Shown here: piece by piece, positions 7,655 through 9,013 of the stretch | How positions within the stretch are numbered: position 1 is the stretch's first letter | How the letters are laid out: each line of letters begins with the position of its first letter | From: a virus | Reading direction: 5' to 3' (one strand) | DNA length: 25,219 nucleotides | Virus record (IMG/VR): IMGVR_UViG_3300020171_000127 | Location: 1-25,219 of that record | Made by a program: the position numbers and the translations under genes | Notes under the pieces: generated by a model | Seen by the model: the letters and a program-made list of their open reading frames with translations, nothing else | Database searches by the model: none | Told to the model about the DNA's origin: nothing

Positions 7655-7680
7655 TCCTTCTCCTCTCTTGAGTCCTACTT
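7655..7680 (-). repeat. 26-bp direct repeat carrying a ribosome-binding site, copy 1
   Basis: These 26 bases are identical to 7900-7925. Read leftward each copy contains AAGAGAGGAGAAGGA a short distance before an ATG, so it is the translation leader of the 61-aa gene here. Exact conservation in a non-coding leader points to recent duplication or recombination. Confidence 0.85.
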
Positions 7681-7892
7681 CAAACGATTGGGCGGAAATA
7701 TCGCTCTCGTATTTCAATCTGTTTGAAACAGACGGGGCAGACGGGCTCTGTTTCTAGGGTCGAGAGGACTACGGCCCCATGCAGAGTGCAATTACCGGCA
7801 ACTGTGTTTGGTTGGGTGCTCGCTTTCCTGCGTTCTCTAGCTCTGATAATAGCTGCGTTGAGCGATTGTGCGAACATCTTGGTGCTATCCAT
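7680..7892 (-). CDS. Small zinc-knuckle protein (70 aa)
   Basis: The protein has a basic helical N-terminus (AQSLNAAIIRARERRKAS) and a C-terminal half with CTLHG and CPVC, which together could hold one zinc. ATG at 7892 follows GGAGAAGGAGAATACG from the second copy of the leader repeat. The start overlaps the end of the upstream gene by eight bases. Function unknown; the next gene upstream has a similar Cys layout. Confidence 0.6.
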   Translation of the reverse strand: MDSTKMFAQSLNAAIIRARERRKASTQPNTVAGNCTLHGAVVLSTLETEPVCPVCFKQIEIRERYFRPIV

Positions 7893-8100
7893 CGTATTCT
7901 CCTTCTCCTCTCTTGAGTCCTACTTGATGCGCCGCGATACGTTCGCAAATTTTGCACTTTGGGCCTTCACTCTCAGACGCGGGGAGATAATGCTGGTGAC
8001 GGCCACAAAGGGGCTTACGAGCCTCAAACATATCTTTGTCGGCGAATAGATGCACGTTGCCAATGCTGCAATGAGTCGTGTCGTTGTAACCGTAAAGCAT
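7885..8100 (-). CDS. Small zinc-knuckle protein (71 aa)
   Basis: I place the start at ATG 8100, which has AAGGGAG six bases upstream, rather than at 8181, whose extra 27 codons would run through the arm of the inverted repeat. The product begins MLYGYNDTTHCSIGNVHLFA and has CGRHQH followed by CKIC, a probable mixed Cys/His zinc site. Its layout (C...LCGRHQ...CKIC) recalls that of the following 70-aa protein (CTLHG...CPVC), so they may be distant paralogues. Confidence 0.6.
   Translation of the reverse strand: MLYGYNDTTHCSIGNVHLFADKDMFEARKPLCGRHQHYLPASESEGPKCKICERIAAHQVGLKRGEGEYDG
7900..7925 (-). repeat. 26-bp direct repeat carrying a ribosome-binding site, copy 2
   Basis: Exact copy of 7655-7680. 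It forms the leader of the 70-aa gene and lies inside the last codons of the upstream 71-aa gene, so here the repeat is also coding for that protein's C-terminus. Confidence 0.85.
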
Positions 8101-8116
8101 CGTAATCTCCCTTCTC

Positions 8117-8131
8117 CTGTCCGGTATCTCC
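8117..8131. repeat. 15-bp direct repeat flanking the structured element, left copy
   Basis: CTGTCCGGTATCTCC occurs here and again at 8457-8471, directly outside the two arms of the long inverted repeat. The position is what a target duplication would look like, but 15 bp is long for most elements; duplicated leader sequence is an alternative since read leftward it contains GGAGATACC. Confidence 0.8.
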
Positions 8132-8452
8132 TTAACCTCTGAGTAGTGAGCGGGTGGCATTGGCGGGGACTTGTTATCCAAGCTCGCTCCGAGGGCTGAG
8201 TCGCTGGTTTTTAAGTCCTCACGGACTACGGATTGATTACCGCGCTCCAGATATAGCTGCCTCTATCACACAGAGCCTAATCCCGATTCCCTTTTGCTGT
8301 GCCATTTCGGGCGGCTGGCATAAGACTTGCGTCAACCAGCACGATTCGCTACTAAGGACGCCGCTAGGGTGCGCGTCTTGGCTTCCCGTCCTTACCCTAC
8401 TTTGCAGGTATATTACAACCTGCTCCACCCGCTCACTATTCAATTGTTAAGG
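8130..8452. other. Structured non-coding element bounded by a 25-bp inverted repeat
   Basis: The left arm is CCTTAAC at 8130-8136 plus TGAGTAGTGAGCGGGTGG at 8140-8157. It pairs with the right arm at 8446-8452 and 8425-8442: seven plus eighteen pairs, one of them G-U on the plus strand and A-C on the minus. Fourteen pairs in a row are perfect. Between the arms lie local hairpins: CTCG/CGAG 8183-8193; AGTCC-TCAC-GGACT 8214-8227; CTCT/AGAG 8261-8275 with a seven-base loop; GCTGG/CCAGC 8314-8340; AAGGACG/CGTCCTT 8354-8393; and GCAGGT/ACCTGC 8404-8423. The only long frame inside (8237-8443, leftward) has a TTG start and no ribosome-binding site. It is either a structured RNA or a small inverted-repeat mobile element. 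Confidence 0.6.
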
Positions 8453-8456
8453 TGCT

Positions 8457-8471
8457 CTGTCCGGTATCTCC
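8457..8471. repeat. 15-bp direct repeat flanking the structured element, right copy
   Basis: Second copy of CTGTCCGGTATCTCC. Its first bases overlap the conserved 15-mer TGTTAAGGTGCTCTG at 8445-8459 that is also found at 3247-3261. Confidence 0.8.
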
Positions 8472-8483
8472 GGCTCAGGACTA

Positions 8484-8714
8484 CTAGCTATTGTGAAGGT
8501 CGTAGAGCCGTTGTGTGCGCTCTTCATCATTAGTTGCTTTCTCCAGCCATGCGATGTCCGCATACAGTTGCATATGATTGCCTCGCTTCGTATCGAGGAA
8601 TGTTGCGAGCCGTTGACGGGCTAACAGAGTACGCGGGCCTCGCTCCCCAATGGTGTGAGTAATGTCGAGTGCTTTAGCTGCTCGTGGAATCAAGGCTAAT
8701 GTTGATGGTGTCAT
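8484..8714 (-). CDS. Hypothetical protein (76 aa)
   Basis: ATG at 8714 follows GATAGGAGAGAACAAG, a good site. The protein begins MTPSTLALIPRAAKALDITH and is basic and helical, with no recognised domain. The ribosome-binding leader TTCTCTCCTATCTCAAT (plus-strand reading, 8719-8735) is repeated in front of the next gene upstream, suggesting shared control or gene-cassette shuffling. Confidence 0.6.
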   Translation of the reverse strand: MTPSTLALIPRAAKALDITHTIGERGPRTLLARQRLATFLDTKRGNHMQLYADIAWLEKATNDEERTQRLYDLHNS

Positions 8715-8761: not shown

Positions 8762-8941
8762 CTAAATATCTATTCTCTCGATTCTGTATTCGCCCCGGGT
8801 GGCGTTTTCGTCCACCCGGTAGAGGATATTTTCCGCGATCCACGTCGCGGCCTCCTGTTCTGTCTCGAATTCCGAATCTCCCACCGCCTCCCCCACCGCC
8901 TCCCACGTTCCGTTACGCTGGAGTAAATCTACCCTGAACAT
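8762..8941 (-). CDS. First leftward early gene, hypothetical protein (59 aa)
   Basis: ATG at 8941 lies behind AGATAGGAGAGAATACG and is the first gene after the strong leftward promoter. The product begins MFRVDLLQRNGTWEAVGEAV and continues as an acidic alpha/beta protein (EFETEQEAATWIAENILYRV...GEYRIERIDI). A 12-base tandem duplication (8880-8903) encodes part of the EAVGEAVG segment. The pattern of strand, helix EAATWIAE, then strand resembles small phage proteins expressed immediately after infection, often host takeover factors; no family recognised. Confidence 0.6.
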   Translation of the reverse strand: MFRVDLLQRNGTWEAVGEAVGDSEFETEQEAATWIAENILYRVDENATRGEYRIERIDI

Positions 8942-8984: not shown

Positions 8985-9013
8985 AGTATATTCCGAATGA
9001 AACCATTTGTCAA
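8985..9013 (-). promoter_or_regulatory. Strong leftward early promoter
   Basis: Read leftward: TTGACA (9013-9008), a 17-base spacer, TATACT (8990-8985). Both boxes are at or near the sigma70 consensus with ideal spacing. The start of transcription would be near 8978, about 37 bases before the first ATG at 8941. It probably drives the whole early operon. Confidence 0.85.

Follow-up and report, generated by a model that had tools for sequence, protein, structure and literature searches.

In Escherichia coli, boxA is necessary and sufficient for the rRNA antitermination complex. The leader tethered in this way has been proposed to meet the emerging trailer, and the resulting leader-trailer helix contains an RNase III site (PMC10250234). 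boxA control has also been described for the mRNAs of suhB and of a ParE-type toxin gene, where a boxA of the rRNA type lies in the 5' UTR, with no trailer mentioned (PMC5725501). In lambdoid phages the nut sites (boxA-boxB, used with the N protein) place a boxA in the early transcript, and recruitment of NusB/S10 is expected there. For rRNA, both boxA antitermination and leader-trailer helices are established; boxA by itself has been described in lambdoid phages and a few mRNAs. RNase III, in turn, cuts the early polycistronic mRNA of phage T7 at double-stranded sites; these form as local intergenic hairpins, have no boxA and involve no long-range helix that encloses a gene.

Here we analyse an element in the early region of a phage genome. 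The window, i.e. the whole stretch of DNA under study, has 25,219 bases and corresponds to one complete virus record. Since the element combines the boxA of Chloroflexota rRNA operons with a leader-trailer helix like that of these hosts, it is probably the phage counterpart of the boxA/leader-trailer device that flanks pre-16S rRNA in the host. It resembles the bacterial device (PMC10250234) in the boxA sequence, which is the host's, in the order of boxA and leader, cargo and trailer, and in the long helix, whose interruption at boxA recurs in most of the host operons tested. The bacterial cargo is 16S rRNA, whereas that of the phage brackets is a small gene or non-coding DNA. Moreover, boxA lies outside the helix and boxC inside in E. 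coli, in contrast to Chloroflexota and many of the bracket phages, where boxA is inside. The mRNAs of suhB and the ParE-type toxin gene share the rRNA-type boxA upstream of a message, but the phage helix additionally encloses its cargo. Compared with lambdoid nut sites, the boxA is of the host rRNA type and a leader-trailer helix is added. The likeness to T7 is a phage early polycistronic RNA cut at double strands, a cut that is presumed for the bracket phages. In the open-access literature, where absence is not proof, we found neither a description of a phage boxA with a leader-trailer helix nor a report of a whole pre-rRNA envelope around phage mRNA genes.

The inverted repeat and its boxA

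On the minus strand of the window, a predicted promoter leads into genes A and B; the bracket comes next and then gene C (Table 1). The boxA is located about 520 nt past the predicted promoter and not at the transcript start; in several relatives a promoter-like sequence is found just 5' of boxA. Nearly all early genes of the window, including B and D, have no homologues among the collected loci (A and C were outside this comparison). Two successive early genes are preceded by repeated copies of CTTCTCCTCTCTTGAGTCCTACTT (7655-7680 and 7895-7924), a shared Shine-Dalgarno leader.

Table 1. Features of the early region of the window, in the direction of transcription of the early genes.
Feature	Position	Strand	Basis
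Predicted sigma70-type early leftward promoter, TTGACA-17-TATACT	8985..9013	-	sequence, strong promoter-like
Gene A, 59 aa, first after the promoter	8762..8941	-	
Gene B, 76 aa, immediately 5' of the element	8484..8714	-	
15-bp direct repeat, copy upstream of the element	8457..8471	-	identity
boxA (candidate antitermination site), AGCACCTTAACAATTGAATAG, identical to Chloroflexota rRNA boxA	8436..8456	-	sequence identity
5' (leader) arm of the leader-trailer helix, most of boxA plus GAGCGGGTGG leader	8425..8452	-	sequence, pairing
Interior (cargo), 267 nt, no ORF with SD and ATG, structure no better than shuffled	8158..8424	-	
58-codon open frame with ATA at the start position of other members, possible decayed or non-AUG gene	8237..8413	-	
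3' (trailer) arm with anti-boxA CACTACTCAGAGGTTAAGG, near-identical to the post-16S trailer of host operon L091	8130..8157	-	sequence, pairing
Downstream copy of the 15-bp direct repeat, extending into the leader of gene C	8117..8131	-	identity
Gene C, 71 aa, immediately 3' of the element	7885..8100	-	

The arms, 28 nt each and separated by 267 nt, are complementary at 24 of 28 positions. The best 28-nt inverted repeat in 200 dinucleotide shuffles of the region 7900-8700 reached 20 matches, so the repeat noted in a preliminary description is real. This description had also placed identical 15-mers immediately outside the arms. Their identity stands (an exact 15-mer repeat occurred in none of 2000 shuffles), but the downstream copy shares 2 nt with the end of the trailer arm and is consequently not strictly outside it. 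On either strand, the complete segment is more stably folded than shuffled sequence (z = -3.0 on the minus and -3.7 on the plus strand), whereas the interior alone does not (z = -0.5 and -0.9 for the two strands). The extra stability thus resides in the closing stem, and the six or more local hairpins previously seen in the interior are no more than expected by chance. A large structured phage RNA of the GOLLD/ROOL type, as had been considered, is not supported, given the interior z-scores near zero and the lack of any Rfam match to the element, either at the gathering threshold or at E ≤ 10. A search of the element for tRNA and tmRNA found none.

The complete element had no blastn match in INPHARED or PLSDB, and a pattern scan for the closing stem found nothing. 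TerL relatives of the window were collected and compared with the element by blastn, and three of them (L017, L022 and L023) contain a match of 20-30 nt, which is AGCACCTTAACAATTGAATAG. In each case it is on the minus strand, 5' of small leftward genes. The motif GCACCTTAACAAYTGAATAG was then scanned across 84,980 species genomes. This boxA 20-mer occurred in 48 genome stretches, and all 48 belong to Chloroflexota by name, by group (Dehalococcoidia, Anaerolineae, SAR202) or by genus. The 5' end of 16S rRNA follows 41-120 nt downstream of boxA in at least 27 of the 48, and a few of the other matches precede 23S-like sequence. By its sequence, the window motif is thus the Chloroflexota rRNA boxA. 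TerL homologues were found in 9 of 393 genomes of the class to which L102 belongs, with 43% at best; these distant matches are compatible, but weakly so, with a Chloroflexota host for the window phage, an assignment that otherwise relies on boxA.

Host operons could be examined for pairing where 16S and its 3' spacer were readable (L099 was left out, as it ends 12 nt after 16S). In all six (L091, L093, L096, L100, L102 and L103) the leader starting from boxA pairs with the spacer behind 16S. The pairing passes through boxA, which thereby lies within the pre-16S leader-trailer helix, unlike the E. coli boxA, and in four of the six operons it is interrupted by a 2x2 mismatch, AA/CG or AA/GG, at the AA of boxA. 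The window arms pair at the same positions and are interrupted at the same AA. The window trailer CACTACTCAGAGGTTAAGGAG and the post-16S spacer CACTACTCAGCGGTTAAGGAG of L091 are one base apart as printed, and the trailers match at 19 of 21 positions. One further imperfect arm pair had been described as G-U when read rightward, which is correct; on the minus strand it is an A-C mismatch, and this mismatch recurs in the rRNA stem of host operon L091 as well as in phage L133.

Brackets in other phages and selection on the helix

Further loci were obtained from viral scans with boxA or the phage leader, plus one genome contig (L191). Including the window, 23 brackets were counted, with at least 22 other loci, mostly IMG/VR phages: L022, L133, L134 (= L135, L146), L136, L143, L144, L147, L148, L149 (twice), L150, L152, L160, L161, L165, L166, L170, L171, L172, L173, L178 and L191. 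In nearly every bracket tested, the observed arm-pairing score exceeded that of all 200 dinucleotide shuffles. The exceptions are the second bracket of L149 (3 of 200) and L150, whose trailer is beyond the range of the test and was found at about 870 nt. Members that were found later each exceed all 12 mononucleotide shuffles, and the duplex energy of L191 exceeds 100 shuffles. In four phages (L149, L171, L172 and L178) a trailer-like sequence is directly followed by another boxA, the order of an rRNA operon, in which the 16S trailer precedes the 23S boxA.

The bracket is common at viral boxA sites but not universal, since no trailer was found at L138, L139, L140, L142, L145, L155, L164, L169, L175, L176 and L179. 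L137 and L167 are possible further cases. On the minus strand of L137, boxA at 8671 precedes an imperfect inverted repeat of 64 nt, and the ORF inside this repeat is about 116 aa long. This ORF appears GIY-YIG-like by eye, and the repeat may be a bracket around a nuclease gene. In TerL-related phages with readable upstream DNA the element is often absent from the DNA available. A blind scan of 55 TerL relatives for inverted repeats, with a threshold above the window itself, recovered only L022/L023 and an unrelated repeat in L055. The latter, a TerL relative, contains near-perfect 24-nt arms 192 nt apart (1105-1320) without boxA.

A separate observation concerns the actinobacterial rRNA boxA GTTTGAGAACTCAATAGTG, which was found in 53 phage records, all from actinobacterial hosts (Mycobacterium 29, Streptomyces 23, Nocardia 1). 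In five of them it is unannotated in the record (L180 1395-1417, L181 2993-3013, L182 1119-1138, L183 1183-1203 and L184 1271-1293) and stands roughly 300-500 nt ahead of a run of small genes. In these five records, no long-range helix linked to boxA scored above shuffles.

Covariation was assessed on ungapped arm alignments, one of 17 sequences (11 phages and 6 rRNA operons) and one of 10 phages. In the larger set 89.7% of the cells are paired, a value biased upward because arms were picked for pairing; the informative part is the two-sided changes. Such changes affect 13 of 28 pairs in the 17 sequences and 11 of 28 in the 10 phages alone. These counts were reached in none of 500 shuffles and are lost on sliding by 1-3 columns. 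The stems therefore covary, and the element represents a genuine RNA structure in a phage early operon, as initially suspected. Across the 23 brackets, 53 G-U pairs stand against 16 A-C pairs (symmetric G-U/A-C scoring, p = 9e-6), and this excess fixes the strand. An RNA helix of the arms is clearly selected on the boxA strand, which is the minus strand in the window and the direction of the early genes. Hence, the rightward reading against the surrounding genes, which had appeared unexpected, does not hold: over all members, the functional strand is that of the genes.

Cargo of the brackets

In 20 of the 23 brackets, Shine-Dalgarno-led ORFs of 56-131 aa are enclosed, nearly always exactly one (L150 has two). 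They start 11-23 nt past the 5' arm and usually stop 7-9 nt ahead of the 3' arm. The encoded proteins are mostly unrelated; by eye, L161 resembles L173 and L022 resembles L149. A reading frame conserved across the element in related phages, raised earlier as an argument against a structured element, is thus present insofar as most relatives enclose a small gene, but these genes are mostly not the same. Three brackets contain no Shine-Dalgarno-led ORF: that of the window, with 267 nt inside, that of L152, with 54 nt, and that of L191, where a length of about 78 nt was read from the sequence.

The absence of a credible gene from the window interior was confirmed: it has no ORF with a Shine-Dalgarno sequence and ATG, and its codon statistics are non-coding-like in every frame, a score that is also weak for the short neighbouring genes. 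Its translations match no Pfam family and were negative in tblastn against phages. A decayed known protein was rejected on these grounds, and a rightward gene at 8154-8450 was discarded as well (codon score -0.26, no family). We read the window cargo as non-coding or as a decayed gene. Alternatively, the 58-codon frame could be a real gene with a non-AUG start, which would make the element an ordinary coding member. An ATA is found at the expected start position after an SD-like GAGCAGG, and a frame of this kind is open in about 3% of shuffled interiors. However, the codon scores and the lack of a protein family stand against such a gene, and its stop lies about 80 nt before the trailer, where 7-9 nt is usual, so that we consider it unlikely.

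Proposed function and alternative explanations

The sequences themselves give the identity of boxA, the resemblance of leader and trailer to those of the host, the covarying helix, the cargo geometry and the recurrence of the bracket in many phages; Nus recruitment, looping and RNase III-type processing in these phages we infer. The nascent phage boxA would bring host NusB-S10, together with the other components of the rRNA antitermination complex, to RNA polymerase, and early transcription would thereby resist Rho and terminators in a Nus-type manner. The boxA-tethered leader would pair with the trailer on its emergence, as in the published rRNA model. Since boxA is paired in the finished helix, synthesis of the trailer should remove it from NusB-S10, and closure of the helix may thus act as a switch that ends boxA occupancy. 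The closed helix may then be a substrate for RNase III-type processing of the early mRNA. Such a cut would excise the cargo as an RNA whose ends are paired and protected, and would free the downstream message. In most relatives this cargo would be a small mRNA fitted between start and stop, and in the window a non-coding or decayed gene. Because a bracket of 250-450 nt is short for a benefit from antitermination, the exact role assigned to the helix is presumptive.

Another possibility is that the arms form only a long-range mRNA helix, which stabilizes the bracketed early gene or regulates its translation. boxA would then be kept for pairing and antitermination would be incidental. The tight distances of start and stop codons from the arms in 20 loci agree with this explanation, as do L144, L172 and L170, which pair with sequence past boxA and leave boxA itself free. 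On the other hand, conservation is highest in boxA even in members that leave it unpaired (L144, L147), although the boxA-based search for loci biases this comparison. The same boxA precedes 16S and 23S rRNA in the hosts, and three members, the window among them, enclose no gene. Overall, a helix of this kind alone appears rather improbable.

The MITE-like mobile element of the preliminary description, or an exchangeable cassette, whose insertion would have produced the 15-bp direct repeats, is not the best reading and very improbable: the identical 15-mers, the alike arms around varying cargo and the divergence of L134 and L135 shortly past a common bracket would fit, but the arms covary as RNA with G-U on one strand, begin with the host rRNA boxA and match the pre-16S leader and trailer, inspection by eye revealed no long direct repeats of this kind in the flanks of other members, and neither an empty site nor a homologous early region was found among the collected loci. 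As a side observation, L134 (12668) and L135 (2958) are nearly identical contigs that share the bracket and all readable upstream DNA, diverge for about 200-390 nt just past the bracket and become alike again thereafter, a pattern that would fit a swap of the next gene. Cassette exchange by recombination is also compatible with the phage version of the pre-16S device favoured here.

In its widest form, this explanation states that Chloroflexota phages have taken over the complete rRNA maturation envelope as a modular envelope for early mRNA, which is transcribed, looped and excised like 16S and in the window carries a non-coding RNA; we regard the chances of this as evenly balanced. The brackets offer a compact natural system, with cargo swapped many times, for studying the function of a leader-trailer helix outside ribosome assembly and a possible contribution of boxA tethering to the pairing of distant arms. 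For the hosts, the operons tested place boxA inside the pre-16S helix, which sets these Chloroflexota apart from E. coli. Finally, the boxA 20-mer may serve as a sequence-based host marker that ties phage contigs to a largely uncultured phylum.
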